NCBI GenBank assembly: GCA_030710605.1
Contig: CP092865.1
Location: 135,425,500-135,489,499, forward strand
DNA from: Cordylochernes scorpioides
Taxonomy: Eukaryota; Arthropoda; Arachnida; Pseudoscorpiones; Chernetidae
Length of the DNA stretch: 64,000 bases
Reading direction: 5' to 3'
Part shown: positions 634-55,420 of the stretch, piece by piece
How positions within the stretch are numbered: the stretch's first letter is position 1
Layout: each line of letters opens with the position of its first letter
Translations under genes and position numbers: made by a program
The notes under the pieces: generated by a model
The model's input: only the letters and a program-made list of their open reading frames with translations
What the model was told of the DNA's origin: nothing
The model's database searches: none

Positions 634-759
634 GATGCCAATAAGGCCAAGAACATTGCTCAGTCCAACAGGGAAATCAGGTCCAATCAGAGAAGGCTCT
701 TGACCGCCTTTGGTGAGACAGAGGTGATGAGTGACCTCTTCAAGTTCAACCAGCTCAAG
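634..759 (+). CDS. SETD1: SETD1 (Set1) n-SET exon
   Basis: This exon encodes 42 residues, including RSNQRRLL and ending DLFKFNQLK. That is the n-SET stretch just before the catalytic SET domain in SETD1/Set1 proteins, the H3K4 methyltransferases of the nuclear COMPASS complex. It is bounded by an acceptor (gtgtccag) and a donor (AAG then gtgagt). It is 126 nt and in phase 0 at both ends, and joins in frame to the next SET exon at 17389 (FNQLK to [11 protein letters not shown], as in vertebrate SETD1B, which has FNQLKFRKKKLKFARS). Earlier exons of this copy are not in the window. The exon is too short and too spliced to appear as an open frame. Identification is confident; the exact acceptor is less certain because the upstream sequence was disturbed by a SINE. 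Confidence 0.88.
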
Positions 760-1509
760 GTGAGTGTCTGATCGCTAGCAACACAGTCTTAGTTGGCAAG
801 ACACCTTGAAGTCTGCTACCATTTAACTTGAAGTTTTGCTTATCTCTTTCTCAATGATATTTAGATAATTGAGAAGTTTGTAATACCTGTGGTATATAAT
901 AATTATAAGCTCCTTCATTGCCATACAGAATGAGGGTTTATTCCATTTCTGACTGGAGGAAGGATCTGGCTTCTCCTGTGTGTGTTGTCAGCCTTCAAAC
1001 TTCTTGGAAGCACTTGTAGAAATAGTTCATTCTAACCTATACTTTTTTTTTTTTTTTTTACTATGTGGATGTATTTTATATTTTTTCTCACAAGGTTCCA
1101 TCATCCAGAAAGAAATAAAAATAGGGGAAATTGTAAAGGAAAGTTAGACTAGAGAGTTGAAAGATAACCATACATCTGTTTAATAAGGCACAATTTGGAT
1201 TATAGATTATAGTCACAAGGTAATAAGACCAAATCCAAATAAATAAATAGTTTGTGACGTTTCAGTAACAACACTAGTCACACACTATTTATTTATTTGT
1301 ATTTGGTCTTATTACCTTGTGTTCATACATCTGTTTGTAAAATGTGCATGTAAATAATGCTCTCTACCTACCACAATTTTTTCAATGTGGAATTCCATTG
1401 CTGAAATTTCTGTAGGGAGGTGAAAACATTCTATATAACTAGGATTCAGGTCTACAAAACTTTCTTCTCACAAACCCACCAATAGATTGAGCCAAACTAC
1501 AGATTTTTT
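760..1509 (+). other. Start of the 16.6-kb SETD1 intron
   Basis: The intron begins with a GTGAGT donor after FNQLK. The stretch holds an oligo-T run near 1045 and one foldback element at 1183-1326. I see nothing else in it before the 71-bp array. Confidence 0.7.
1183..1326. repeat. Foldback element, hammerhead-family (short copy)
   Basis: It starts ataaggcacaatttggatta and continues with 'cacaaggtaataagacc'. The right arm is the inverse of that block. The central part with the ribozyme-like core is missing, apart from a 'gtgacgtttcagtaacaac' remnant. Confidence 0.7.
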
Positions 1510-1790
1510 GACGCCTGGAAACATTTAATTCCTATTATCAGTGTAGGTTTAGTTGTCTGTTAGGATTAACGATGAGATGGTGTGCAGGTCCTCAAGAAAT
1601 TTTCAAATCTTAGGGTTAGTATGGCCTTTGCTAGATGTTAGAATTTATGATGAGGTGGTGTGCGGTCCCGCAGGAAACATTCAAATCCTACGGTCAGTGT
1701 GAGTTTAGCTGGAATTTAGGATGAGGTGGTGTGCAGTTCCACAGGAAACATTTAAATCCTATGGTCAGTGTGAGTTTTGCTGGAATTTAG

Positions 1791-3310
1791 AATTAAACCC
1801 CCAAAAATCTGAAACCTGTCTTTTTACTACCGATAAGAAACTATACAAAATAAGACCAAAAATTATTCTGAAAGAACAACAATTGCAATATAATAAGCAT
1901 CCTAAATATCTTGGCTACACCCTGGATCCAGAAATTAACTCCAGTAAACATATTGAAGAAGTTATTAGAAAAGGAAGAGACCGACTAAAAATCCTGAAAT
2001 ATATTTCAGGAAGAGAGTGGGGAGCCGATGCAACCACACTAAAATTAACTTACACATCTCTAATTAGACCTATCCTGGAATATGGATATCAAATCTATGG
2101 TACAGCATCTGAAACAAATCTAAAATCACTGGAAAGGATACAACTAAGTGCAGCTAGAATTATTACAGGTCTTCGAAATACCTGCCCTAATGATATTGTA
2201 CTTTACGAGGCAGACATTATGCCCTTAAAGGATAGAAGAAGCTACAATCTGCCAAAATATATAAACCAAATCAAGAGTTATGGAAACAAACACAGAACTT
2301 CCAAGTACATACTTAATTGGGAATCCAATTTAAGGTTCAAAAAAGAAGGCCCTCTATACCTGGCCAAAAGAAATGAATTTTTAAAATATAAAGTGGAAAA
2401 AAATTATTTAGCAGAAAAAATTTCTCCATGCAAACCACTGCAAAATGTTATTTTTAATGCCACTTTAAATGAACCCACCAACAAACAATACCAAAATCCA
2501 GAATACCTAAAACAATTATTATTAGAAATAATTAATAACATTCCTAAAAATGCAATAACTATCTATACCGATGGTAGCAGAGACGAGCTAGGACACACTG
2601 TCAGTGGCTGTCTCATCAAAACCACAAATGGCATTGAGAAAATGAACAGAAGAAACCCAGATTTTTGCTCAGTCTTCAGATCAGAACTTATAGCCATCTA
2701 TGAAGCCTTAAAATCCATCAGAAATTCTAATTATCAAGATATCTGGATTCTTACTGATAGTAGAAGTGCTATACAACACTTGAGTCACACAGGGGAACTC
2801 AGAGACAAAGTAAGCAGGAACATAATTGGTTATCTCCAAAATCTCTCAAAAACCTCAAAAATTCACCTTCAATGGATACCCTCACACTTTGGCATTGAAG
2901 GCAATGAAGCTGCTGATGTGCTAGCGAAAAAAGGCACAAAAGAACCCTTGCCACAGAAAAATAAACTTACTTTTAAAGAAATAGAAACAATAGCCAAAAC
3001 AAAAATAAACAAGAACTGGAGGATCCCACCTAAGCACAGTTGGTACAGTGGAATGAACCCAGGAGGAGCTCTAAACATCAGAAATAGACAGCATCAAACA
3101 ACACTAACAAGATTTAGAACAGGCCATCTCAAGCCATTGAAGATAGAAAATAATAACAAAATTTATCCCACTTGCCCAAAATGTAGTTTGGTACCTGCAG
3201 CTCCAGAACACATTTTGGCTTGCATTAGATGCACTAAACAGGACCTTTGGGAGAGGCCGCTGCTCATCATAAAACAGCTCGAGGAGCATGAACTCATGGA
3301 ATTCGTGTAA
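1791..3310 (+). CDS. Retrotransposon polyprotein, C-terminal part: RT thumb, RNase H, zinc knuckle
   Basis: This is the last 506 codons of a non-LTR (I/jockey-like, RNase H-bearing) retrotransposon ORF2. The open frame begins in the satellite at 1721, giving 529 codons; the first 23 are repeat-encoded, so the ATG at 1721 is not the element's own. The C-terminal part of reverse transcriptase comes first (KYLGYTLD..., GADATTLKLTYTSLIRPILEYG). An RNase H domain follows, with its catalytic residues present, numbered in that frame: D284 (YTDGS), E322 (SELIAIYEAL), D346 (LTDSRSA) and D399 (NEAADVLAKKG), plus the SHFGIEGNE loop. It ends in a CPKC...EHILAC zinc-knuckle-like motif. The endonuclease and RT catalytic core are missing, so it cannot move by itself. 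The open frame suggests a fairly recent insertion. Family assignment is by motif recognition only. Confidence 0.85.
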
Positions 3311-3340
3311 TCTTTACACAGGGGATAAGAAACAACAACA
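1791..3340 (+). mobile_element. 5'-truncated non-LTR retrotransposon inserted in the array
   Basis: The insertion begins after a monomer's ggaatttag and ends just before ggatgaggtgg, where the array resumes. It keeps the 3' end of the coding region, a stop codon, and a short tail ending in aagaaacaacaaca. No poly-A tail or clear target-site duplication is visible. Two further copies of the same 3' end lie on the minus strand at 40774-41043 and 60356-60412. Confidence 0.85.
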
Positions 3341-6300
3341 GGATGAGGTGGTGTGCAGTTCCGCAGGAAACATTCAAATCCTATGGTCAGTGTGAGTTTA
3401 GCTGGAATTTAGGATGAGGTTGTGTGCAGTTCCGCAGGAAACATTTAAATCCTATGGTCAGTGTGAGTTTAGCTGGAATTTAGGATGAGGTGGTGTGCAG
3501 TTCCGCAGGAAACATTTAAATCCTATGGTCAGTGTGAGTTTAGCTAGAATTTAGGATGAGTTGGTGTGCAGTTCTGCAGGAAACATTCAAATCCTATGGT
3601 CAGTGTGAGTTTAGCTGGATTTAGGATGAGGTGGTGTGCAGTTCCGTAGGAAACATTTAAATCCTATGGTTAGTGTGAGTTTAGCTGGAATTTAGGATGA
3701 GGTGGTGTGCAGTTCCGCAGGAAACATTTAAATCCTATGGTCAGTGTGAGTTTAGCTGGAATTTAGGATGAGGTGGTGTGCAGTTCCGCAGGAAACATTT
3801 AAATCCTATGGTCAGTGTGAGTTTTGCTGGAATTTAGGATGAGGGGGTGTACAGTTCCGCAGGAAACATTCAAATCCTATGGTCAGTGTGAGTTTAGGTT
3901 GAAGTTAAGATGAGGTGGTGTACAGTTCCGCAGGAAACATTCAAATCCTATGGTCAGTGTGAGTTTAGCTGGAATTTAGAAGGTGGTGTGCAGTTCCGTA
4001 GGAAACATTTAAATCCTATAGTCAGTGTGAGTTTAGCTTGAATTTAGAAGGAGGTGGTGTGCAGTTCCTAAGGAAACATTCAAATCCTATGGTCAGCGTG
4101 AGTTTTGCTGGAACTTAGGAGGAGGTGGTGTGCGGTTCTGCAGGAAACATTCAAATCCTATGGTCAATGTGAGTTTTGCTGGAATTTAGGATGAGGTGGT
4201 GTGCAGTTCCGCAGGAAACATTTAAATCCTATGGTCAGTGTGAGTTTAGCTGGAATTTAGGATGAGATGGTGTGCAGTTCCGCAGGAAACATTTAAATCC
4301 TATGGTCAGTGTGAGTTTAGCTTGAAGTTAAGATGAGGTGGGGTGCAGTTCCGCAGGAAACATTTAAATCCTATGGTCAGTGTGAGTTTTGCTGGAATTC
4401 AGGATGAGGTGGTGTGCAGTTCCGCAGGAAACATTTAAATCCTATGGTCAGTGTGAGTTTAGCTTGAAGTTAAGATGAGGTGGGGTGCAGTTCCACAGGA
4501 AACATTTAAATCCTATGGTCAGTGTGAGTTTAGCTGGAATTTAGGATGAGGTGGTGTACAGTTCTGCAGGAAACATTCAAATCCTATGGTCAATGTGAGT
4601 TTAGCTGGAATTTAGGATGAGGTGGTGTGGAGTTCCGCAGGAAACATTTGAATCCTATGGTCAGTGTGAGTTTTTTTGGAATTTAAGATGTGGTATTGTG
4701 CATTTCCGCAGGAAACATTCAAATCCTATGGTCAGTGTTAGTTTAGTTGGAAGTTAAGATGAGATGGTGTGCATTTCAGCAGGAAACATTCGAATCCTAT
4801 GGTAAGTGTGAGTTTTGTTGGAATTTAGGATGTGGTGGTGTGCAGTTGCGAAGGAAAAATTTAAATCCTATGGTCAGTTGGAAGTTAGGATGAGATGGTG
4901 TGCATTTCCGCAGGAAACATTCAAATCCTATGGTCAGTGTGAGTTTTGCTGGAATTTTGGATGAGGGGGTGTACAGTTCAGCAGGAAACATTCAAATCCT
5001 ATGGTCAGTGAGTTTAGCTTGAAGTTAAGATGAGGTGTTGTACAGTTCCGCAGGAAACATTCAAATCCTATGGTCAGTGTTAGCTTTTCTGGAATTTAGG
5101 ATGTGGTAGTGTGCAGTTGCGAAGGAAATATTTAAATCCTATGGTCAGTTGGAAGTTAAGATGAGATGGTGTGCATTTCCGCAGGAAACATTTGAATCCT
5201 ATGGTCAGTGTGAGTTTAGCTTGAAGTTAAAATGAGGTGGTGTGCAGTTCTGCAGGAAACATTCAAATTTATGGTCAGTGTGAGTTTAGCTGGAATTTAA
5301 GATGAGGTGGTGTGCAGTTCCGCAGGAAACATTTAAATCCTATTGTCAGTGTGAGTATAGCTGGAATTTAGGATGAGGTGGTGTGCAGTTCCGAAGGAAA
5401 CATTTAAATCCTATGGTCAGTGTGAGTTTAGCTTGAAGTTAAAATGAGGTGGTGTACAGTTCCGCAGGAAACATTTAAATCCTATTGTCAGTGTGAGTAT
5501 AGCTGGAATTTAGGATGAGGTGGTGTGCAGTTCCGAAGGAAACATTTAAATCCTATGGTCAGTGTGAGTTTAGCTGGAATTTAGGAGGAGGTGGTGTGCA
5601 GTTCCGCAGGAAACATTTAAATCCTATGGTCAGTGTGAGTTTAGCTAGAATTTAGGATGAGTTGGTGTGCAGTTCTGCAGGAAACATTCAAATCCTATGG
5701 TCAGTGTGAGTTTAGCTGGATTTAGGATGAGGTGGTGTGCAGTTCCGTAGGAAACATTTAAATCCTATGGTTAGTGTGAGTTTAGCTGGAATTTAGGATG
5801 AGGTGGTGTGCAGTTCCGGAGGAAACATTTAAATCCTATGGTCAGTGTGAGTTTAGCTGGAATTTAGGATGAGGTGGTGTGCAGTTCCGCAGGAAACATT
5901 TAAATCCTATGGTCAGTGTGAGTTTAGCTGGAATTTAGGATGAGGTGGTGTACAGTTCCGCAGGAAACATTCAAGTCCTATGGTCAGTGTGAGTTTAGCT
6001 GAAATTTAGGATTAAGGTGGTGTGCAGTTCCATAGGAAACTTTCAAATCCTATGGTCAGTGTGAGTTTAGCTTGAAGTTAAAATGAGGTGGTGTACAGTT
6101 CCGCAGGAAACATTCAAGTCCTATGGTCAGTGTGAGTTTAGCTGGAATTTAGGATAAGGTGGTGTGCAGTTCCATAGGAAACACTCAAATCCTGTGGTCA
6201 GTGTGAGTTTAGCTTGAAGTTAAAATGAGGTGGTGTACAGTTCCTCAGGAAACATTCAAGTCCTATGGTCAGTGTGAGTTTAGCTGGAATTTAGGATAAG

Positions 6301-9300
6301 GTGGTGTGCTGTTCCATAGGAAACATTCAAATCCTATGGTCAGTGTGAGTTTAGCTGGAATTTAGGATGAGGTGGTGTGCATTTCCGCAGGAAACATTCA
6401 AATCCTATGGTCAGTGTGAGTTTAGCTGGAATTTAGAAGGAAGTGGTGGGCAGTTCCGCAGGAAACATTCAAATCCTATGGTCAGCGTGAGTTTTGCTGG
6501 AATTTAGGAGGAGGTGGAGTGCAGTTCCGCAGGAAACATTCAAATCCTATGGTCAATGTGAGTTTTGCTGGAATTTAGGATGAGGTGGTGTGCAATTCCG
6601 AAGGAAAGATTTAAATCCTATGGTCAGTGTGAGTTTAGCTGGAATTTAGGATGAGATGGTGTGCAGTTCCGCAGGAAACATTTAAATCCTATGGTCAGTG
6701 TGAGTTTAGCTTGAAGTTAAGATGAGGTGGGGTGCAGTTCCGCAGGAAACATTTAAATCCTATGGTCAGTGTGAGTTTAGCTTGAAGTTAAGATGAGGTG
6801 GGGTGCAGTTCCGCAGGAAACATTTAAATCCTATGGTCAGTGTGAGGTTAGCTGGAATTTAGGATGAGGTGGGGTGGAGTTCCGCAGGAAACATTTGAAT
6901 CCTATGGTCAGTGTGAGTTTAGCTGGAATTTAGGATGAGGTAGTGTACAGTTCCGCAGGAAACATTCAAATCCTATGGTCAGTGTGAGTTTAGCTGGAAT
7001 TTAGGATGAGGTGGTGTGCAGTTCCGCAGGAAACATTTAAATCCTATGGTCAGTGTGAGTTTAGCTTGAAGTTAAGATGAGGTGGTGTACAGTTCCGCAG
7101 GAAACATTCAAATCCTATGGTGAGTGTGAGTTTTGCTGGAATTTAGGATGAGATGGTGTGCAGTTCCGCAGGAAACATTTAAATCCTATGGTCAATGTGA
7201 GTTTTGCTGGAATTTAGGATGAGGTGGTGTGCAGTTCCTCAGGAAACATTCAAATCCTATGGTCAGTGTTAGTTTAGTTGGAAGTTAAGATGAGATGATG
7301 TGCATTTCCGCAGGAAACATTCGAATCCTATGGTCAGTGTGGGTTTTGTTAGAATTTAGGATGTGGTGGTGTGCAGTTCCGCAGGAAACATTCAAATCCT
7401 ATGTTCAGTGTTAGTTTAGTTGGAAGTTAAGATGAGATGGTGTGCATTTCCGCAGGAAACATTCGAATCCTATGGTCAGTGTGAGTTTTGTTGGAATTTA
7501 GGATGTGGTATTGTGCATTTCCGCAGGAAACATTCAAATCCTATGGTCAGTGTTAGTTTAGTTGGAAGTTATGATGAGATGGTGTGCATTTCCGCAGGAA
7601 ACATTCGAATCCTATGGTCAGTGTGAGTTTTGTTGGAATTTAGGATGTGGTGGTGTGCAGTTCCGCAGGAAACATTCAAATCCTATGGTCAGGGTGAGTT
7701 TAGCTGCAATTTAGGATGTGGTAGTGTGCAGTTGCGAAGGAAAAATTTAAAGCCTATGGTCAGTTGGAAGTTAAGATGAGATGGTGTGCATTTCCGCAGG
7801 AAACATTTGAATCCTATGGTCAGTGTGAGTTTTGCTGGAATTTAGGATGAGGGGGTGTACAGTTCCGCAGGAAACATTCAAATCCTATGGTCAGTGTGAG
7901 TTTAGCTTGAAATTAAGATGAGGTGGTGTACAGTTCCGCAGGAAACATTCAAATCCTATGGTCAGTGTGAGTTTAGCTGGAATTTAGGACGAGGTGCTGT
8001 GCAGTTCCGTAGGAAACATTTAAATCCTATGGTCAGTGTGAGTTTAGCTTGAAGTTAAAATGAGGTGGTGTACAGTTTTGCAGGAAACATTCAAGTCCTA
8101 TGGTCAGTGTGAGTTTAGCTGGAATTTAGAAGGTGGTGTGCAGTTCTGTAGGAAACATTTAAATCCTATAGTCAGTGTGAGTTTAGCTTGAATTTAGAAG
8201 GAGGTGGTGTGCAGTTCCTAAGGAAACATTCAAATCCTATGGTCAGCGTGAGTTTTGCTGGAACTTAGGAGGAGGTGGTGTGCGGTTCTGCAGGAAACAT
8301 TCAAATCCTATGGTCAATGTGAGTTTTGCTGGAATTTAGGATGAGGTGGTGTGCAGTTCCGCAGGAAACATTTAAATCCAATGGTCAGTGTGAGTTTAGC
8401 TGGAATTTAGGATGAGATGGTGTGCAGTTCCGCAGGAAACATTTAAATCCTATGGTCAGTGTGAGTTTAGCTTGAAGTTAAGATGAGGTGGTGTGCATTT
8501 CCGTAGGAAACATTCGAATCCTATGGTCAGTGTGAGTTTTTTTGGAATTTAAGATGTGGTATTGTGCATTTCCGCAGGAAACATTCAAATCCTATGGTCA
8601 GTGTTAGTTTAGTTGGAAGTTAAGATGAGATGGTGTGCATTTCAGCAGGAAACATTCGAATCCTATGGTAAGTGTGAGTTTTGTTGGAATTTAGGATGTG
8701 GTGGTGTGCAGTTGCGAAGGAAAAATTTAAATCCTATGGTCAGTTGGAAGTTAGGATGAGATGGTGTGCATTTCCGCAGGAAACATTCAAATCCTATGGT
8801 CAGTGTGAGTTTTGCTGGAATTTTGGATGAGGGGGTGTACAGTTCAGCAGGAAACATTCAAATCCTATGGTCAGTGAGTTTAGCTTGAAGTTAAGATGAG
8901 GTGGTGTACAGTTCCGCAGGAAACATTCAAATCCTATGGTCAGTGTTAGCTTTTCTGGAATTTAGGATGTGGTAGTGTGCAGTTGCGAAGGAAATATTTA
9001 AATCCTATGGTCAGTTGGAAGTTAAGATGAGATTGTGTGCATTTCCGCAGGAAACATTTGAATCCTATGGTCAGTGTGAGTTTAGCTTGAAGTTAAAATG
9101 AGGTGGTGTGCAGTTCTGCAGGAAACATTCAAATTTATGGTCAGTGTGAGTTTAGCTGGAATTTAAGATGAGGTGGTGTGCAGTTCCGCAGGAAACATTT
9201 AAATCCTATTGTCAGTGTGAGTATAGCTGGAATTTAGGATGAGGTGGTGTGCAGTTCCGAAGGAAACATTTAAATCCTATGGTCAGTGTGAGTTTAGCTT

Positions 9301-12300
9301 GAAGTTAAAATGAGGTGGTGTACAGTTCCGCAGGAAACATTTAAATCCTATTGTCAGTGTGAGTATAGCTGGAATTTAGGATGAGGTGGTGTGCAGTTCC
9401 GAAGGAAACATTTAAATCCTATGGTCAGTGTGAGTTTAGCTGGAATTTAGGAGGAGGTGGTGTGCAGTTCCGCAGGAAACATTTAAATCCTATGGTCAGT
9501 GTGAGTTTAGCTAGAATTTAGGATGAGTTGGTGTGCAGTTCTGCAGGAAACATTCAAATCCTATGGTCAGTGTGAGTTTAGCTGGATTTAGGATGAGGTG
9601 GTGTGCAGTTCCGTAGGAAACATTTAAATCCTATGGTTAGTGTGAGTTTAGCTGGAATTTAGGATGAGGTGGTGTGCAGTTCCGGAGGAAACATTTAAAT
9701 CCTATGGTCAGTGTGAGTTTAGCTGGAATTTAGGATGAGGTGGTGTGCAGTTCCGCAGGAAACATTTAAATCCTATGGTCAGTGTGAGTTTAGCTGGAAT
9801 TTAGGATGAGGTGGTGTACAGTTCCGCAGGAAACATTCAAGTCCTATGGTCAGTGTGAGTTTAGCTGAAATTTAGGATTAAGGTGGTGTGCAGTTCCATA
9901 GGAAACTTTCAAATCCTATGGTCAGTGTGAGTTTAGCTTGAAGTTAAAATGAGGTGGTGTACAGTTCCGCAGGAAACATTCAAGTCCTATGGTCAGTGTG
10001 AGTTTAGCTGGAATTTAGGATAAGGTGGTGTGCAGTTCCATAGGAAACACTCAAATCCTGTGGTCAGTGTGAGTTTAGCTTGAAGTTAAAATGAGGTGGT
10101 GTACAGTTCCTCAGGAAACATTCAAGTCCTATGGTCAGTGTGAGTTTAGCTGGAATTTAGGATAAGGTGGTGTGCAGTTCCATAGGAAACATTCAAATCC
10201 TATGGTCAGTGTGAGTTTAGCTGGAATTTAGGATGAGGTGGTGTGCATTTCCGCAGGAAACATTCAAATCCTATGGTCAGTGTGAGTTTAGCTGGAATTT
10301 AGAAGGAAGTGGTGGGCAGTTCCGCAGGAAACATTCAAATCCTATGGTCAGCGTGAGTTTTGCTGGAATTTAGGAGGAGGTGGAGTGCGGTTCCGCAGGA
10401 AACATTCAAATCCTATGGTCAATGTGAGTTTTGCTGGAATTTAGGATGAGGTGGTGTGCAATTCCGAAGGAAACATTTAAATCCTATGGTCAGTGTGAGT
10501 TTAGCTGGAATTTAGGAGGAGGTGGTGTGCAGTTCCGCAGGAAACATTTAAATCCTATGGTCAGTGTGAGTTTAGCTAGAATTTAGGATGAGTTGGTGTG
10601 CAGTTCTGCAGGAAACATTCAAATCCTATGGTCAGTGTGAGTTTAGCTGGATTTAGGATGAGGTGGTGTGCAGTTCCGTAGGAAACATTTAAATCCTATG
10701 GTTAGTGTGAGTTTAGCTGGAATTTAGGATGAGGTGGTGTGCAGTTCCGGAGGAAACATTTAAATCCTATGGTCAGTGTGAGTTTAGCTGGAATTTAGGA
10801 TGAGGTGGTGTGCAGTTCCGCAGGAAACATTTAAATCCTATGGTCAGTGTGAGTTTAGCTGGAATTTAGGATGAGGTGGTGTACAGTTCCGCAGGAAACA
10901 TTCAAGTCCTATGGTCAGTGTGAGTTTAGCTGAAATTTAGGATTAAGGTGGTGTGCAGTTCCATAGGAAACTTTCAAATCCTATGGTCAGTGTGAGTTTA
11001 GCTTGAAGTTAAAATGAGGTGGTGTACAGTTCCGCAGGAAACATTCAAGTCCTATGGTCAGTGTGAGTTTAGCTGGAATTTAGGATAAGGTGGTGTGCAG
11101 TTCCATAGGAAACACTCAAATCCTGTGGTCAGTGTGAGTTTAGCTTGAAGTTAAAATGAGGTGGTGTACAGTTCCTCAGGAAACATTCAAGTCCTATGGT
11201 CAGTGTGAGTTTAGCTGGAATTTAGGATAAGGTGGTGTGCAGTTCCATAGGAAACATTCAAATCCTATGGTCAGTGTGAGTTTAGCTGGAATTTAGGATG
11301 AGGTGGTGTGCATTTCCGCAGGAAACATTCAAATCCTATGGTCAGTGTGAGTTTAGCTGGAATTTAGAAGGAAGTGGTGGGCAGTTCCGCAGGAAACATT
11401 CAAATCCTATGGTCAGCGTGAGTTTTGCTGGAATTTAGGAGGAGGTGGAGTGCGGTTCCGCAGGAAACATTCAAATCCTATGGTCAATGTGAGTTTTGCT
11501 GGAATTTAGGATGAGGTGGTGTGCAATTCCGAAGGAAACATTTAAATCCTATGGTCAGTGTGAGTTTAGCTGGAATTTAGGATGAGATGGTGTGCAGTTC
11601 CGAAGGAAACATTTAAATCCTATGGTCAGTGTGAGTTTAGCTTGAAGTTAAAATGAGGTGGTGTACAGTTCCGCAGGAAACATTTAAATCCTATTGTCAG
11701 TGTGAGTATAGCTGGAATTTAGGATGAGGTGGTGTGCAGTTCCGAAGGAAACATTTAAATCCTATGGTCAGTGTGAGTTTAGCTGGAATTTAGGAGGAGG
11801 TGGTGTGCAGTTCCGCAGGAAACATTTAAATCCTATGGTCAGTGTGAGTTTAGCTAGAATTTAGGATGAGTTGGTGTGCAGTTCTGCAGGAAACATTCAA
11901 ATCCTATGGTCAGTGTGAGTTTAGCTGGATTTAGGATGAGGTGGTGTGCAGTTCCGTAGGAAACATTTAAATCCTATGGTTAGTGTGAGTTTAGCTGGAA
12001 TTTAGGATGAGGTGGTGTGCAGTTCCGGAGGAAACATTTAAATCCTATGGTCAGTGTGAGTTTAGCTGGAATTTAGGATGAGGTGGTGTGCAGTTCCGCA
12101 GGAAACATTTAAATCCTATGGTCAGTGTGAGTTTAGCTGGAATTTAGGATGAGGTGGTGTACAGTTCCGCAGGAAACATTCAAGTCCTATGGTCAGTGTG
12201 AGTTTAGCTGAAATTTAGGATTAAGGTGGTGTGCAGTTCCATAGGAAACTTTCAAATCCTATGGTCAGTGTGAGTTTAGCTTGAAGTTAAAATGAGGTGG

Positions 12301-15300
12301 TGTACAGTTCCGCAGGAAACATTCAAGTCCTATGGTCAGTGTGAGTTTAGCTGGAATTTAGGATAAGGTGGTGTGCAGTTCCATAGGAAACACTCAAATC
12401 CTGTGGTCAGTGTGAGTTTAGCTTGAAGTTAAAATGAGGTGGTGTACAGTTCCTCAGGAAACATTCAAGTCCTATGGTCAGTGTGAGTTTAGCTGGAATT
12501 TAGGATAAGGTGGTGTGCAGTTCCATAGGAAACATTCAAATCCTATGGTCAGTGTGAGTTTAGCTGGAATTTAGGATGAGGTGGTGTGCATTTCCGCAGG
12601 AAACATTCAAATCCTATGGTCAGTGTGAGTTTAGCTGGAATTTAGAAGGAAGTGGTGGGCAGTTCCGCAGGAAACATTCAAATCCTATGGTCAGCGTGAG
12701 TTTTGCTGGAATTTAGGAGGAGGTGGAGTGCGGTTCCGCAGGAAACATTCAAATCCTATGGTCAATGTGAGTTTTGCTGGAATTTAGGATGAGGTGGTGT
12801 GCAATTCCGAAGGAAACATTTAAATCCTATGGTCAGTGTGAGTTTAGCTGGAATTTAGGAGGAGGTGGTGTGCAGTTCCGCAGGAAACATTTAAATCCTA
12901 TGGTCAGTGTGAGTTTAGCTAGAATTTAGGATGAGTTGGTGTGCAGTTCTGCAGGAAACATTCAAATCCTATGGTCAGTGTGAGTTTAGCTGGATTTAGG
13001 ATGAGGTGGTGTGCAGTTCCGTAGGAAACATTTAAATCCTATGGTTAGTGTGAGTTTAGCTGGAATTTAGGATGAGGTGGTGTGCAGTTCCGGAGGAAAC
13101 ATTTAAATCCTATGGTCAGTGTGAGTTTAGCTGGAATTTAGGATGAGGTGGTGTGCAGTTCCGCAGGAAACATTTAAATCCTATGGTCAGTGTGAGTTTA
13201 GCTGGAATTTAGGATGAGGTGGTGTACAGTTCCGCAGGAAACATTCAAGTCCTATGGTCAGTGTGAGTTTAGCTGAAATTTAGGATTAAGGTGGTGTGCA
13301 GTTCCATAGGAAACTTTCAAATCCTATGGTCAGTGTGAGTTTAGCTTGAAGTTAAAATGAGGTGGTGTACAGTTCCGCAGGAAACATTCAAGTCCTATGG
13401 TCAGTGTGAGTTTAGCTGGAATTTAGGATAAGGTGGTGTGCAGTTCCATAGGAAACACTCAAATCCTGTGGTCAGTGTGAGTTTAGCTTGAAGTTAAAAT
13501 GAGGTGGTGTACAGTTCCTCAGGAAACATTCAAGTCCTATGGTCAGTGTGAGTTTAGCTGGAATTTAGGATAAGGTGGTGTGCAGTTCCATAGGAAACAT
13601 TCAAATCCTATGGTCAGTGTGAGTTTAGCTGGAATTTAGGATGAGGTGGTGTGCATTTCCGCAGGAAACATTCAAATCCTATGGTCAGTGTGAGTTTAGC
13701 TGGAATTTAGAAGGAAGTGGTGGGCAGTTCCGCAGGAAACATTCAAATCCTATGGTCAGCGTGAGTTTTGCTGGAATTTAGGAGGAGGTGGAGTGCGGTT
13801 CCGCAGGAAACATTCAAATCCTATGGTCAATGTGAGTTTTGCTGGAATTTAGGATGAGGTGGTGTGCAATTCCGAAGGAAACATTTAAATCCTATGGTCA
13901 GTGTGAGTTTAGCTGGAATTTAGGATGAGATGGTGTGCAGTTCCGCAGGAAACATTTAAATCCTATGGTCAGTGTGAGTTTAGCTTGAAGTTAAGATGAG
14001 GTGGGGTGCAGTTCCGCAGGAAACATTTAAATCCTATGGTCAGTGTGAGTTTAGCTTGAAGTTAAGATGAGGTGGGGTGCAGTTCCGCAGGAAACATTTA
14101 AATCCTATGGTCAGTGTGAGGTTAGCTGGAATTTAGGATGAGGTGGGGTGGAGTTCCGCAGGAAACATTTGAATCCTATGGTCAGTGTGAGTTTAGCTGG
14201 AATTTAGGATGAGGTAGTGTACAGTTCCGCAGGAAACATTCAAATCCTATGGTCAGTGTGAGTTTAGCTGGAATTTAGGATGAGGTGGTGTGCAGTTCCG
14301 CAGGAAACATTTAAATCCTATGGTCAGTGTGAGTTTAGCTTGAAGTTAAGATGAGGTGGTGTACAGTTCCGCAGGAAACATTCAAATCCTATGGTGAGTG
14401 TGAGTTTTGCTGGAATTTAGGATGAGATGGTGTGCAGTTCCGCAGGAAACATTTAAATCCTATGGTCAATGTGAGTTTTGCTGGAATTTAGGATGAGGTG
14501 GTGTGCAGTTCCTCAGGAAACATTCAAATCCTATGGTCAGTGTTAGTTTAGTTGGAAGTTAAGATGAGATGATGTGCATTTCCGCAGGAAACATTCGAAT
14601 CCTATGGTCAGTGTGGGTTTTGTTAGAATTTAGGATGTGGTGGTGTGCAGTTCCGCAGGAAACATTCAAATCCTATGTTCAGTGTTAGTTTAGTTGGAAG
14701 TTAAGATGAGATGGTGTGCATTTCCGCAGGAAACATTCGAATCCTATGGTCAGTGTGAGTTTTGTTGGAATTTAGGATGTGGTATTGTGCATTTCCGCAG
14801 GAAACATTCAAATCCTATGGTCAGTGTTAGTTTAGTTGGAAGTTATGATGAGATGGTGTGCATTTCCGCAGGAAACATTCGAATCCTATGGTCAGTGTGA
14901 GTTTTGTTGGAATTTAGGATGTGGTGGTGTGCAGTTCCGCAGGAAACATTCAAATCCTATGGTCAGGGTGAGTTTAGCTGCAATTTAGGATGTGGTAGTG
15001 TGCAGTTGCGAAGGAAAAATTTAAATCCTATGGTCAGTTGGAAGTTAAGATGAGATGGTGTGCATTTCCGCAGGAAACATTTGAATCCTATGGTCAGTGT
15101 GAGTTTTGCTGGAATTTAGGATGAGGGGGTGTACAGTTCCGCAGGAAACATTCAAATCCTATGGTCAGTGTGAGTTTAGCTTGAAATTAAGATGAGGTGG
15201 TGTACAGTTCCGCAGGAAACATTCAAATCCTATGGTCAGTGTGAGTTTAGCTGGAATTTAGGACGAGGTGCTGTGCAGTTCCGTAGGAAACATTTAAATC

Positions 15301-17388
15301 CTATGGTCAGTGTGAGATTAGCTTGAAGTTAAAATGAGGTGGTGTACAGTTTTGCAGGAAACATTCAAGTCCTATGGTCAGTGTGAGTTTAGCTGGAATT
15401 TAGAAGGTGGTGTGCAGTTCTGTAGGAAACATTTAAATCCTATAGTCAGTGTGAGTTTAGCTTGAATTTAGAAGGAGGTGGTGTGCAGTTCCTAAGGAAA
15501 CATTCAAATCCTATGGTCAGCGTGAGTTTTGCTGGAACTTAGGAGGAGGTGGTGTGCGGTTCTGCAGGAAACATTCAAATCCTATGGTCAATGTGAGTTT
15601 TGCTGGAATTTAGGATGAGGTGGTGTGCAGTTCCGCAGGAAACATTTAAATCCTATGGTCAGTGTGAGTTTAGCTGGAATTTAGGATGAGATGGTGTGCA
15701 GTTCCGCAGGAAACATTTAAATCCTATGGTCAGTGTGAGTTTAGCTTGAAGTTAAGATGAGGTGGGGTGCAGTTCCGCAGGAAACATTTAAATCCTATGG
15801 TCAGTGTGAGTTTTGCTGGAATTCAGGATGAGGTGGTGTGCAGTTCCGCAGGAAACATTTAAATCCTATGGTCAGTGTGAGTTTAGCTTGAAGTTAAGAT
15901 GAGGTGGGGTGCAGTTCCACAGGAAACATTTAAATCCTATGGTCAGTGTGAGTTTAGCTGGAATTTAGGATGAGGTGGTGTACAGTTCTGCAGGAAACAT
16001 TCAAATCCTATGGTCAATGTGAGTTTAGCTGGAATTTAGGATGAGGTGGTGTGGAGTTCCGCAGGAAACATTTGAATCCTATGGTCAGTGTGAGTTTAGC
16101 TTGAAGTTAAGATGAGGTGGGGTGCAGTGCCGCAGGAAACATTTGAATCCTATGGTCAGTGTGAGGTTAGCTGGAATTTAGGATGAGGTGGTGTGGAGTT
16201 CCGCAGGAAACATTTGAATCCTATGGTCAGTGTGAGTTTTGTTGGAATTTAGGATGTGGTGGTGTGCATTTCAGTAGGAAACATTCGAATCCTATGGTCA
16301 GTGTGAGTTTTTTTGGAATTTAAGATGTGGTATTGTGCATTTCCGCAGGAAACATTCAAATCCTATGGTCAGTGTTAGTTTAGTTGGAAGTTAAGATGAG
16401 ATGGTGTGCATTTCAGCAGGAAACATTCGAATCCTATGGTAAGTGTGAGTTTTGTTGGAATTTAGGATGTGGTGGTGTGCAGTTGCGAAGGAAAAATTTA
16501 TATCCTATGGTCAGTTGGAAGTTAGGATGAGATGGTGTGCATTTCCGCAGGAAACATTCAAATTCTATGGTCAGTGTGAGTTTTGCTGGAATTTTGGATG
16601 AGGGGGGTGTACAGTTCAGCAGGAAACATTCAAATCCTATGGTCAGTGAGTTTAGCTTGAAGTTAAGATGAGGTGGTGTACAGTTCCGCAGGAAACATTC
16701 AAATCCTATGGTCAGTGTTAGCTTTTCTGGAATTTAGGATGTGGTAGTGTGCAGTTGCGAAGGAAATATTTAAATCCTATGGTCAGTTGGAAGTTAAGAT
16801 GAGATGGTGTGCATTTCCGCAGGAAACATTTGAATCCTATGGTCAGTGTGAGTTTAGCTTGAAGTTAAAATGAGGTGGTGTGCAGTTCTGCAGGAAACAT
16901 TCAAATTTATGGTCAGTGTGAGTTTAGCTGGAATTTAAGATGAGGTGGTGTGCAGTTCCGCAGGAAACATTTAAATCCTATTGTCAGTGTGAGTTTAGCT
17001 GGAATTTAGGATGAGGTGGTGTGCAGTTCCGAAGGAAACATTTAAATCCTATGGTCAGTGTGAGTTTAGCTGGAATTTAGGAGGAGGTGGTGTGCAGTTC
17101 CGTAGGAAACATTCAAATCCTATGGTCTGTGTGAGTTTAGCTGGAATTTAGGATGAGGTGGTGTGCAGTTCCGCAGGAAACATTCAAATCCTATGGTCTG
17201 TGTTAGTTTAGCTTGAAGTTAAAATGAGGTGGTGTACAGTTCTGTAGGAAACATTCAAATCCTATGGTCAGTGTTAGTTTAGCTGGAATTTAGGATTGAA
17301 GATGAGATGGTGTGCAGTTCTGCAGCAAACATTGAAATGCTGTGGTCGGTATGAGCTTTGCTGGAAGTTAAGATGAGGTTGTGTGCAG

Positions 17389-17646
17389 TTCCGCAGGAAG
17401 CATCTCAAGTTTGCCAGGAGCAGGATCCACAACTGGGGCCTGTTTGCCCTTGAGCCAATCGCTGCGGATGAGATGGTGATTGAGTATGTCGGCCAGAAGG
17501 TCCGCCAGGTTATTGGAGATGTCCGGGAGGAGAAATACACCAAGATGGGCATTGGCTCGAGCTACCTGTTCCGCCTGGACCACGACACAGTTATTGATGC
17601 CACCACCATGGGCAACTTCTCTCGCTTCATCAACCACAGCTGCAAT
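17389..17646 (+). CDS. SETD1: SETD1 catalytic SET exon
   Basis: This exon encodes 86 residues of the SET domain, which transfers methyl groups from S-adenosylmethionine to histone H3 lysine 4. Recognisable motifs are [18 protein letters not shown] at the start, [28 protein letters not shown] and [11 protein letters not shown] at the end. NHSC takes part in the cofactor-binding pseudoknot. The acceptor is gtgtgcag, the last of about 200 near-identical acceptors in the preceding array. The donor is gtgagt at 17647. The exon is 258 nt, in phase 0 at both ends, and joins directly to PNCYAKV in the next exon. The conserved sequence leaves little doubt about identity. A GTG at 17383 lies in the intron and is not a start. 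Confidence 0.96.
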
Positions 17647-18177
17647 GTGAGTATCTACTGCTTCCATACTACATGCCTTTTTACTATCTATTTTAGCATG
17701 GCATCAGGTTGTACCATAAATAATGGCCGTTTGGAAGCGACCAATTGAAGACATCATATCTAAGCTAAAAATGAGTTTTATTTAAACAAAATAGGCACCA
17801 TTAGAATCACAGTACCTTTACCAACGTGCTGGTAAAACCTTTATGCAGTTTTCATAAAAGTCTGGTTGTTTTGAGACCAAATAATCCAAAAAGGCGTTTT
17901 TCCCATTTCTCCGGTTGATCAAATGTGCCAGAGCCCCGTTTGGTTACCTGCACTCACTGGTGGGGTTGAACTTTTGCAAGAATCAGGGGACCACTGGAGC
18001 AATGCCCAATGCGAGAATCGAACCCGGGTCATAATGGTTGAAAACCAACGGTTTAGACTATCATTCAACCAACCCCCTGTGTCATCCTTACTACCTTCAA
18101 CACCACTTGTCTCAGTTTTTTTTCTCCCCTGACTTGAATGTTTCCAAGTGGTGACAACAACCATCGGTGGTGTGCAG
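17647..18177 (+). other. Intron between the two SET exons
   Basis: It runs from GTGAGT to TGTGCAG, 531 nt. It contains a truncated minus-strand SINE. A short pyrimidine stretch (tttttttctcccctg) lies about 50 nt before the acceptor. Confidence 0.85.
17921..18072 (-). mobile_element. SINE fragment (tRNA head and middle)
   Basis: The reverse complement matches the SINE from its tRNA-like head (gaatcgaacccgggtc on the + strand, an intact B box) through the central gcaagaatc/ccagagccccgtttgg block. The 3' part and A tail are missing. Confidence 0.8.
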
Positions 18178-18351
18178 CCCAACTGCTACGCCAAGGTGAT
18201 CACAGTGGAGGGCCAGAAGAAAATAGTGATCTACTCCAAACAACAGATCAACGTGAACGAGGAAATCACCTACGACTACAAGTTCCCTCTGGAAGATGAC
18301 AAGATCCCCTGTCTGTGTTATACCCCTCAATGTCGACGGTACCTCAACTAG
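18178..18351 (+). CDS. SETD1: SETD1 last exon: end of SET and post-SET
   Basis: This exon encodes [20 protein letters not shown], then the [13 protein letters not shown] segment with the catalytic-site tyrosine, and ends [15 protein letters not shown] before a TAG stop. These are the last 57 residues of a SETD1/Set1 protein. The three post-SET cysteines that bind zinc with NHSC are kept (CLC....C). Two glycines usual at this site in SETD1 (CGS..CRG) are replaced by Tyr and Arg. The acceptor tgtgcag is followed in phase 0 by CCC AAC. The stop falls at the usual C-terminus, so the protein end is full length. Confidence 0.95.
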
Positions 18352-22262: not shown

Positions 22263-22299
22263 CTTCATCACATTCTATACTGGGGTGATATAATCATAA

Positions 22300-23453
22300 G
22301 GAATTATTGTTGTTGTTGTGTCCAATGAAGAGCCTCTGATGTCTCCATGCATCTCTATCACAGCAGCAGCAATGTCCACTATCATAAGGAATTATTGTTG
22401 TTGTTGTGTCCAATGAAGAGCCTCAGATGTCTCCATGCATCTCTATCACAGCAGCAGCAATGTCCACTATCATAAGGAATTATTGTTGTTGTTGTGTCCA
22501 ATGTAGAGCCTCAGATGTCTCCATGCATCTCTATCACAGCAGCAGCAATGTCCACTATCATAAGGAATTATTGTTGTTGTCGTGTCCAATGAAGAGCCTC
22601 AGATGTCTCCATGCATCTCTATCACAGCAGCAGCAATGTCCACTATCATAAGGAATTATTGTTGTTGTTGTGTCCAATGAAGAGCCTCAGATGTCTCCAT
22701 GCATCTCTATCACAGCAGCAGCAATATCCACTATCATAAGGAATTATTGTTGTTGTCGTGTCCAATGTAGAGCCTCAGATGTCTCCATGCATCTCTATCA
22801 CAGCAGCAGCACTATCCACTATCATAAGGAATTATTGTTGTTGCCATGTCCAATGAAGAGCCTCAGATGTCTCCATGCATCTCTATCACAGCAGCAGCAC
22901 TATCCACTATCATAAGGAATATTTTTGTTGCCATGTCCAATGAAGAGCCTCAGATGTCTCCATGCATCTCTATCACAGCAGCAGCAATATCCACTATCAT
23001 AAGGAATTATTGTTGTTGCCATGTCCAATGAAGAGCCTCAGATGTCTCCATGCATCTCTATCACAGCAGCAGCAATGTCCACTATCATAAGGAATTATTG
23101 TTGTTGCCATGTCCAATGAAGAGCCTCAGATGTCTCCATGCATCTCTATCACAGCAGCAGCAATGTCCACTATCATAAGGAATTATTATTGTTGCCATGT
23201 CCAATGAAGAGCCTCAGATGTCTCCATGCATCTCTATCACAGCAGCAGCAATGTCCACTATCATAAGGAATTATTGTTGTTGTCGTGTCCAATGAAGAGC
23301 CTCAGATGTTTCCATGCATCTCTATCACAGCAGCAGCAATGTCCACTATCATAAGGAATTATTGTTGTTGTCATGTCCAATGAAGAGCCTCAGATGTCTC
23401 CATGCATCTCTATCACAGCAGCAGCAATGTCCACTATCATAAAGAATTATTGT
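22300..23453 (+). repeat. 88-bp tandem array (about 13 copies)
   Basis: Units start ggaattattgttgttg and contain agagcctcagatgtctcc and tcacagcagcagcaatgtcc. Starts at 22300 and 22388 give the 88-bp period. Units are over 95 percent alike by eye. The period is not a multiple of three, so open frames cycle through the repeat and look like low-complexity proteins. I see no evidence that they are genes. Confidence 0.95.
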
Positions 23454-30723: not shown

Positions 30724-30823
30724 NNNNNNNNNNNNNNNNNNNNNNNNNNNNNNNNNNNNNNNNNNNNNNNNNNNNNNNNNNNNNNNNNNNNNNNNNNNNN
30801 NNNNNNNNNNNNNNNNNNNNNNN
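30724..30823. other. Assembly gap, exactly 100 N
   Basis: A run of exactly 100 N is the usual placeholder for a scaffold join of unknown length. Different retroelements flank it, so the true distance and order of the two sides are not supported by sequence. Confidence 0.95.
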
Positions 30824-53394: not shown

Positions 53395-55420
53395 CCATCG
53401 CCAAATTACCATTTTTACTAATTATCAACTCTTTAGTAAGAGGACACCTCTTCACAAAGGAGTTTTCATCGCCAAATTACCATTTTTACTAATTATCAAC
53501 TCTTTAATAAGAGGACACCTCTTCACAAAGGAGTTTTCATCGCCAAATTACCATTTTTACTAATTATCAACTCTTTAATAAGAGGACACCTCTTCACAAA
53601 GGAGTTTCATCGCCAAATTACCATTTTTACTAATTATCAACTCTTTAATAAGAGGACACCTCTTCACAAAGGAATTTTCATCGCCAAATTACCATTTTTA
53701 CAATTAACAACTCTTTAATAAGAGGACACCTCTTCACAAAGGAGTTTTCATCGCCATATTACCAATTTTACTAATTATTAACTCTTTAGTAAGAGGACAC
53801 CTCTTCACAAAGGAGTTTTCATCGCCAAATTACCATTTTTACTAATTATCAACTCTTTAATAAGAGGACACCTCTTCACAAAGGAGTTCTCATCGCCAAA
53901 TTACCATTTTTACTAATTATCAACTCTTTAATAAGAGGACACCTCTTCACAAAGGAGTTTTCATCGCCAAATTACCATTTTTACTAATTATCAACTCTTT
54001 AATAAGAGGACACCTCTTCACAAAGGAGTTTTCATCGCCAAATTACCATTTTTACTAATTATCAACTCTTTAATAAGAGGACACCTCTTCACAAAGGAGT
54101 TTTCATCGCCAAATTACCATTTTTACTAATTATCAATTCTTTAGTAAGAGGACACCTTCACAAAGGAGTTTTCATCGCCAAATTACCATTTTTACTAATT
54201 ATCAACTCTTTAGTAAGAGAACACCTCTTCACAAAGGAGTTTTCATCGCCATATTACCAATTTTACTAATTATCAATTCTTTAGTAAGAGGACACCTCTT
54301 CACGAAGGAGTTTTCATCGCTAAATTACCATTTTTTACTAATTATCAACTCTTTAGTAAGAGGACACCTCTTCACAAAGGAGTTTTCATCGCCAAATTAC
54401 CATTTTTACTAATTATCAACTCTTTAGTAAGAGGACACCTCTTCACAAAGGAGTTTTCATCGCCAAATTACCATTTTTACTAATTATCAACTCTTTAGTA
54501 AGAGGACACCTCTTCACAAAGGAGTTTTCATCGCAAAATTACCATTTTTACTAATTATCAACTCTTTAGTAAGAGGACACCTCTTCACAAAGGAGTTTTT
54601 CATCGCCAAATTACCATTTTTACTAATTATCAACTCTTTAATAAGAGGACACCTCTTCACAAAGGAGTTTTCATCGCCATATTACCAATTTTACTAATTA
54701 TCAACTCTTTAATAAGAGGACACCTCTTCACAAAGGGTTTTCATCGCCAAATTACCATTTTTACTAATTATCAACTCTTTTGTAAGAGGACACCTCTTCA
54801 CAAAGGAGTTTTCATCGCCAAATTACCTTTTTTACAAATTAACAACTCTCTGGTAAGAGGACACCTCTTCACAAAGGAGTTTTCATCGCCAAATTACCTT
54901 TTTTACAAATTAACAACTCTCTGGTAAGAGGACACCTCTTCACAAAGGAGTTTTCATCGCCAAATTACCATTTTTACTAATTATCAACTCTTTAGTAAGA
55001 GGACACCTCTTCACAAAGGAGTTTTCATCGCCAAATTACCATTTTTACTAATTATCAACTCTTTAGTAAGAGGACACCTCTTCACAAAGGAGTTTTCATC
55101 GCCAAATTACCATTTTTACTAATTATCAACTCTTTAATAAGAGGACACCTCTTCACAAAGGGTTTTCATCGCCAAATTACCATTTTTACAAATTAACAAC
55201 TCTTTAGTAAGAGGACACCTCTTCACAAAGGAGTTTTCATCGCCAAATTACCATTTTTACTTATTATCAACTCTTTAGTAAGAGGACACCTCTTCACAAA
55301 GGAATTTTCATCGCCAAATTACCTTTTTTACAAATTAACAACTCTTTAGTAAGAGGACACCTCTTCACAAAGGACACTTTGGTCCTGCAACTTGGTGTCC
55401 CTTACAGAGAGGTTCTACTG
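53395..55420. repeat. 71-bp tandem array expanded inside a MITE (about 28 copies)
   Basis: The unit tcgccaaattaccattttta, then ctaattatcaactctttagt, then aagaggacacctcttcacaa, then aggagttttca, is the internal part of the CAGTAGAACCTCC MITE. The right end of the MITE (cactttggtcctgcaacttg to GGTTCTACTG) closes the array at 55420. The left end is missing. The period is 71 bp (53469 to 53540). Confidence 0.92.

Follow-up and report, generated by a model that had tools for sequence, protein, structure and literature searches.

A tandem array of 71-bp units resembling the 3' splice site of the adjacent SET exon in a SETD1 intron of Cordylochernes scorpioides

The SETD1 locus and its intronic array

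The stretch of DNA analyzed here, referred to as the window, comprises 64,000 nucleotides (nt) from the pseudoscorpion Cordylochernes scorpioides (positions 135,425,500 to 135,489,499 of contig CP092865.1, here C3, of the 2.62-Gb assembly GCA_030710605.1 with its 24 contigs). It contains three exons of a SETD1 gene, and the intron in front of the exon encoding the SET domain harbors a long tandem array whose 71-bp unit resembles the 3' splice site of this very exon. With the three exons as query, a protein search retrieved a 235-residue SETD1B protein of C. scorpioides with 100% identity along the query. Pfam analysis of the exon translation assigned a SET domain; among relatives of solved structure, the best are H3K4-specific methyltransferases. 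The coordinates of all features are compiled in Table 1.

Tandem Repeats Finder (TRF) reports the 71-bp array from 3340 to 17408 with 199.5 copies and 88% matches. Wrap-around alignment divides the segment up to 17388 into 200 units, the first of which is only a 19-base part; 191 of the 200 are full units, i.e. units with fewer than 10 gap columns. The initial annotation of this DNA, which had counted roughly 200 tandem monomers before the SET exon, was accurate in this respect. Its further statement that every monomer is identical to the true acceptor and exon start is overstated: a 19-base core, GTGTGCAGTTCCGCAGGAA, matches the window 203 times with up to three mismatches (0 matches in 100 shuffles), but only 38 times exactly, the true junction included, and the exact 11-mer TTCCGCAGGAA is present in 108 of the 191 full units. 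The unit ends in AG in 157 of the 191 full units, the last of these being the true acceptor, and in 158 of all 200, one of them again the true acceptor. A GT at columns 28-29 is kept in 189 of the 191 full units.

The array is interrupted by a fragment of a long interspersed nuclear element (LINE), which separates three diverged units and a part unit at the 5' edge from the main array and is also found in the array of a second SETD1 copy on C3 (see below). Judged by eye, a LINE 3' end of the same family also occurs at this intron position in each of the two SETD1 paralogs, i.e. the gene on C3 and another on contig C17: on C3 it immediately precedes the main array, and on C17 it lies 60 bases upstream of the SET exon.

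The SETD1 acceptors themselves were read across the two paralogs (window stretches 590-633, 17361-17388 and 18130-18177 for the gene on C3). Five of the six end in GT-rich rather than pyrimidine-rich sequence, namely ggttggtgtgtccag, gaggttgtgtgcag, ggtggtgtgcag, gtgatgtgatgtccag and gaggtgtgtacag, with the first base of the C17 n-SET exon being inferred; the sole exception is the acceptor of the last exon on C17. A further GT-rich acceptor may exist on contig C8, where the exon start is provisional. For an exon near L009:8700, the best candidate acceptor is pyrimidine-rich.

Table 1. Features of the SETD1 locus (window coordinates)
Feature	Position	Strand	Basis and remarks
SETD1 n-SET exon (DANKAK...KFNQLK)	634..759	+	translation, protein match; ends in phase 0, AAG/gtgagt
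Array-bearing intron, 16,629 bp, phase 0	760..17388	+	sequence, exon joins of the matched SETD1B protein
5' array edge (three diverged units, one part unit)	1517..1793	+	alignment; beyond the LINE from the main array
LINE fragment within the array	1794..3339	+	RNase H domain; open frame at 1709-3310; ends placed by eye
Main array, 200 units of 71 bp (191 full), gene-strand orientation	3340..17388	+	TRF, wrap-around alignment
Last unit, ending at the true acceptor gaggttgtgtgcag	17318..17388	+	sequence, wrap-around alignment
Exon bases common to the unit consensus (TTCCGCAGGAAGCATCTCAA vs TTCCGCAGGAAACAT-TCAA)	17389..17408	+	alignment
SETD1 SET exon, 258 nt, donor AAT/gtgagt	17389..17646	+	sequence, Pfam SET, solved relatives
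Last SETD1 exon (PNCYAK...YLN stop), acceptor ggtggtgtgcag	18178..18351	+	sequence

Register with the SET exon and origin of the units

The register of the array continues into the SET exon, as a unit following the last one would begin exactly at exon base 17389. Without gaps, exon and unit consensus agree at 11 of 11, 14 of 15, 16 of 20 and 17 of 27 bases, and a gapped local alignment spans 20 exon bases with 18 identities, one mismatch and one gap. The score of this alignment is 28, as compared to 23 for the best of 2000 shuffles, and a match of at least 14 of 15 bases at a fixed place has a probability of about 4 in 10^8 if equal base frequencies are assumed. In positions 1-1500 and 17405-64000, searched on either strand, the first 15 exon bases gave no match with up to two mismatches and a single one, on the minus strand, with three. 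The last monomer merging into the exon, the gapped similarity over about 21 bases and an alignment to the junction better than to random sequence, all part of the initial annotation or of the checks it proposed, are borne out by these data.

The exon start encodes FRKK or FRRK, a motif conserved in most of the animals aligned, and the units carry these conserved codons, FR(R/K)K, in frame. The extended form FRRKH was found solely in this species among 121 protein sequences (the SETD1 piece of the window and the best 120 of 1160 matches), with the motif used failing to match eight of the 121, the piece from the window among them; H or R singly does occur at these positions in other proteins compared. 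Eight of 19 homologues start, or switch to unrelated sequence, at the residue of the exon start (two ticks, two birds, a turtle, two fish and a sponge, the non-tick set having been chosen mostly for short coverage), and for this reason the exon boundary at this residue looks old.

The SETD1 gene on C17 (C17:30495529-30504542, minus strand) has the same exon start and an intron at the same position; it, too, comes as a near-equal pair, with 97 kb between the two. Its SET exon starts with TTCCGGAAGAAGCAG and is identical to that on C3 at 192 of 258 bases. The preceding intron ends in GAGGTGTGTACAG, or GTGGTGTGTACAG in the second copy, and no TTCCG repeat was found in the 459 bases of this intron that were read. 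Over the last 20 nt this intron end resembles the unit (p 0.001-0.003 with CAG held fixed). In view of this paralog, the designation of the host as an essential gene in the initial annotation would have to be put more cautiously.

Since the units carry the conserved codons of the exon itself, and since the C17 junction is free of an array in the stretch read, the array appears to be derived from the junction. That the array arose from a duplication spanning the intron-exon junction, as the initial annotation had proposed, is therefore well supported, and the old-looking intron position fits into this picture. Position 12 is A in every full unit of both copies on C3 (191 and 76 units, respectively), and the exon has G at this place, which points to one founder unit.

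Other sources of the unit were considered and rejected. A global alignment of the unit with the first 90 nt of the exon was no better than with middle-shuffled sequence (p 0.69), and neither the n-SET exon nor the n-SET donor side gave a signal (p 0.57 and 0.83). As a separate observation, exon bases 78-90 (17466-17478), GGATGAGATGGTG, agree with GGATGAGGTGGTG of the unit at 12 of 13 positions (p 0.09), with exact occurrences in 11 of the 200 units. The acceptor end GGTGGTGTGCAG is common to the next intron at 12 of 12 positions, with p 0.01 within 58 nt (CAG not fixed) and p 0.26 when tested against the whole intron; this likeness may reflect the prevalence of GT-rich intron ends in the two paralogs.

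Confinement of the array and the second SETD1 copy

A 25-base probe with up to two mismatches, a reach that more diverged copies would escape, matched the genome 241 times, always on the gene strand and never on the opposite one. The window accounts for 172 of these matches, and the remaining 69 fall within the second SETD1 copy, which lies about 80 kb downstream; the other genome stretches fetched gave none. The initial annotation had named bulk occurrence of the satellite elsewhere in the genome as evidence against its proposal, and within the reach of the probe all 241 matches are accounted for by the two SETD1 copies.

In the second copy the intron measures 8,214 bp and the main array 5,641 bp or 81 units. 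The array size thus differs 2.5-fold (200 vs 81 units) between two copies that resemble haplotypes. The exons of both copies encode the same protein, and they differ at 1 of 258 bases in the SET exon and at 2 of 126 in the n-SET exon. Towards the array edges the units correspond one to one, the first 6 differing by 0-1 bases each and the last 23 by 0-3; the interiors differ, and within the long array stretches as long as 2,358 bp recur exactly at a lag of 2343, i.e. 33 units. Matching edges, a differing interior and self-copies look like the outcome of growth by unequal exchange or block copying.

The relationship between the two copies extends to their surroundings. The first 30.7 kb of the window belong to a contig flanked by gaps of 100 N (window 30724-30823 and C3:135386774-135386873), which measures 69,349 bp between these gaps provided that the 3 kb outside the fetched sequence hold no gap. 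It is colinear with the inside of the next contig over 65,159 of 66,349 fetched bases, the array included, with a piecewise identity of 89%-99.8% and as few as 1 mismatch in 10 kb. This contig resembles an unpurged haplotig of the one that follows, and the two SETD1 copies on C3 are most likely haplotypes left unmerged in the assembly, a true tandem duplication being conceivable as well. According to our own grouping of SET genes, 7 of 14 groups are near-equal pairs 31-203 kb apart (SETD1 included, one pair inverted) and 7 are single, so that pairing is common, yet not the rule. Such pairs imply that the genome may contain fewer genes than a plain count suggests.

Two further arrays were noted in the window. 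One, at 53396-55374, likewise has a period of 71 bp (28 copies) and recurs in the second copy of the locus; it has at most 7 consecutive bases in common with the SETD1 unit. The other, at 22293-23453, consists of 13 copies of 88 bp, and the greater part of it, at 22399-23347, is without a colinear match in the second copy of the locus.

Splice sites and coding potential of the units

Furthermore, the units were assessed as potential splice sites, using crude matrices. Nothing that was scored in the last 20-50 bases distinguishes the true acceptor from the decoys, i.e. the other units ending in AG. No 15-base stretch of the array has more than 10 pyrimidines. The consensus unit lacks a match to the branch-site consensus yTnAy, and the 14-kb array contains 4 such matches as compared to a shuffle mean of 224. 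This scarcity was rejected as a designed feature: it is one unit counted many times, and the chance of it in a single 71-mer is about one in three. Exon-like columns deviate from the consensus as often as the others (6.3% and 6.1%, respectively; 6.2% and 6.5% in the second copy).

If a decoy were used as a plain acceptor, translation would meet an in-frame stop in all 157 cases, starting within 142 nt at most and within 54 nt in 149 of them. A different picture emerges when the GTs within the unit are taken as donors, as the sequence then offers the layout of a microexon, that is an AG, a short in-phase exon and a GT, with donors of ordinary quality. The 27 nt between the AG and the GT at columns 28-29 are stop-free and in phase 0 in 151 of the 154 units that are preceded by an AG and ungapped over columns 1-29, and no stop was found among 74 such pieces of the second copy. 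They encode FRRKHLNPM or FRRKHSNPM in 117 of the 188 units read. The 33 nt preceding the GT at column 34 are stop-free in 142 of the 143 units preceded by an AG and ungapped over columns 1-35. The donor scores amount to 6.3 bits for ATG/GTCAGT and 6.6 for AGT/GTGAGT at column 34, as compared to 8.2 for the donor of the SET exon. A donor as good as ATG/GTCAGT is held by 32% of shuffled 71-mers; this donor therefore need not be meaningful, and GTCAGT was dismissed as a designed feature.

Interpretation

Taken together, we consider it probable that the array is a single-locus minisatellite born inside SETD1, which is treated in the RNA as ordinary intron and whose last acceptor is chosen by what follows it. 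A segment of about 71 bp across the 3' splice site, made up of about 51 intron and about 20 exon bases, would have been tandemly duplicated once. The founder duplication would then have drifted and expanded, by unequal exchange and block copying, to the 200 and 81 units seen in the two copies. As the decoys share much the same last bases, acceptor choice would not be set by the acceptor itself. The last acceptor alone heads a 258-nt exon with its own donor, while decoys would precede either 27-33 nt with a fair donor or a stop. From the sequence, the SET exon together with its donor would thus select the last acceptor by exon definition, the decoys would be mostly silent, and the array is most likely a neutral, length-variable minisatellite.

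Several observations weigh against this interpretation. When the monomers were scored, as the initial annotation had suggested, 21 of the 157 other units ending in AG outscored the true acceptor, which is a weak site by these matrices: 66% of the 2476 AGs from outside the array reach or exceed its score. GT-rich ends are usual in the SETD1 pair, and so decoys may perform better in this gene than standard matrices estimate. The acceptor G (column 71) ranks 12th of 71 in variability here and 9th in the second copy, which could hint at a possible loss of decoys. Finally, the likeness between the C17 intron end and the unit is not beyond chance when taken over 45 nt (p 0.05 and 0.10).

The array length might instead tune the output of SETD1, with decoy use leading to a stop and destruction of the transcript, or with skipping of the SET exon, so that a longer allele would yield less full-length SETD1. 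The in-frame stops behind all 157 decoys and the 2.5-fold difference in array size are in line with this idea, as is the human ABCA7 gene, where skipping of exon 19 is reported to increase with the length of a variable number tandem repeat (VNTR) (PMC5954066). We nevertheless regard it as unlikely, given that the exon-like columns are as variable as the remainder and that the consensus unit is devoid of yTnAy, the latter counting effectively as one observation despite the 4 matches in the array vs 224 after shuffling. It appears rather improbable that, in an animal whose SETD1 introns tend towards GT-rich ends lacking a pyrimidine tract, the array works as a splice ladder in which many of the approximately 200 units of acceptor, 27 or 33 nt and donor are used, with the amount of SETD1 or the length of the SET-domain linker tracking the array length.

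The stop-free pieces, whose phase 0 is that of this intron, would also permit a variable number of 27-nt (FRRKHLNPM or FRRKHSNPM) or 33-nt units to be included as inserts of 9 or 11 residues between n-SET and SET, or to act as recursive splice steps. The absence of a stop from the 27-nt pieces of the second copy agrees with such a use; however, the donors fall short of that of the SET exon, 27 nt is short for an exon, and an RKH(S/L)NPM insert occurs in none of the 121 proteins compared, all but two of which come from other species, making inclusion or recursive splicing very unlikely. Still further from what we expect is an array older than the exon start, which it would have overwritten, or a match of exon and unit by mere chance. 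As this species alone has FRRKH among the proteins compared, and the units have the same codons, conversion from array to exon would be possible for the two changed codons; the 14 of 15 matches in a fixed register, the conserved FR(R/K)K in frame within the unit and the C17 junction, array-free in the stretch read, make either case extremely unlikely.

The locus thus presents about 200 near-identical 3' splice sites ahead of the true one, matching it in register and phase, as a natural test of how a true acceptor is recognized. As the assembly contains two array lengths, and the C17 junction lacks an array in the stretch read, acceptor choice by the spliceosome becomes testable in nature.

Comparison with known systems

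Within the reach of our probe, the array occupies a single gene, with 14 and 5.6 kb in the two copies, and not the many heterochromatic sites of a classical satellite. Introner elements are repeats that carry splice sites and are spread over many introns; the SETD1 array has the splice sites in common with them, but the probe matches are confined to one gene instead of many unrelated introns. Head-to-tail units of 71 bp at a single locus place the array among the minisatellites or VNTRs, with their units of 10-100 bp.

The initial annotation knew of no described satellite with such an origin. This claim is too broad, as repeats that contain splice donors are known from two genes. The minisatellite of one of them, IFI6 (6-16), was reportedly described by Turri et al. 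1995. Its repeat units serve as splice donors (PMC4526556). Both minisatellites offer several splice sites to one transcript; those of IFI6 are donors, whereas those of SETD1 are acceptors, in an array of about 200 units. Tandem genomic duplication has also been described as a route to intron gain (PMC4974935). There, too, a tandem duplication within a gene alters the intron structure; the duplication, however, creates a new intron, whereas in SETD1 an old intron was filled with copies of its own end.

An acceptor-side array of this kind was not encountered among the full-text literature matches listed, most subscription papers lying beyond reach, and the claim of a lack of precedent is thereby narrowed to the acceptor side. 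The closest counterpart on the donor side is the VNTR in intron 18 of human ABCA7, with a 25-bp unit that includes the splice donor of exon 18 itself and named alleles between 315 bp and 9,711 bp long (PMC5954066). ABCA7 likewise has an intronic tandem array that abuts an exon and contains the splice site of this exon in its unit; its marked variation in length would be matched in SETD1 if the copies with 200 and 81 units are alleles. The SETD1 unit holds the site of its own host exon and abuts it in the same manner, with an acceptor in place of the donor. While ABCA7 combines a donor-side location and a 25-bp unit with a reported effect on splicing, the SETD1 array lies on the acceptor side, and its 71-bp unit also includes exon bases and donor-like GTs. 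Overall, our results suggest that the splice junction of a gene can seed an acceptor-side minisatellite within that gene, the mirror image of the donor VNTR of ABCA7.

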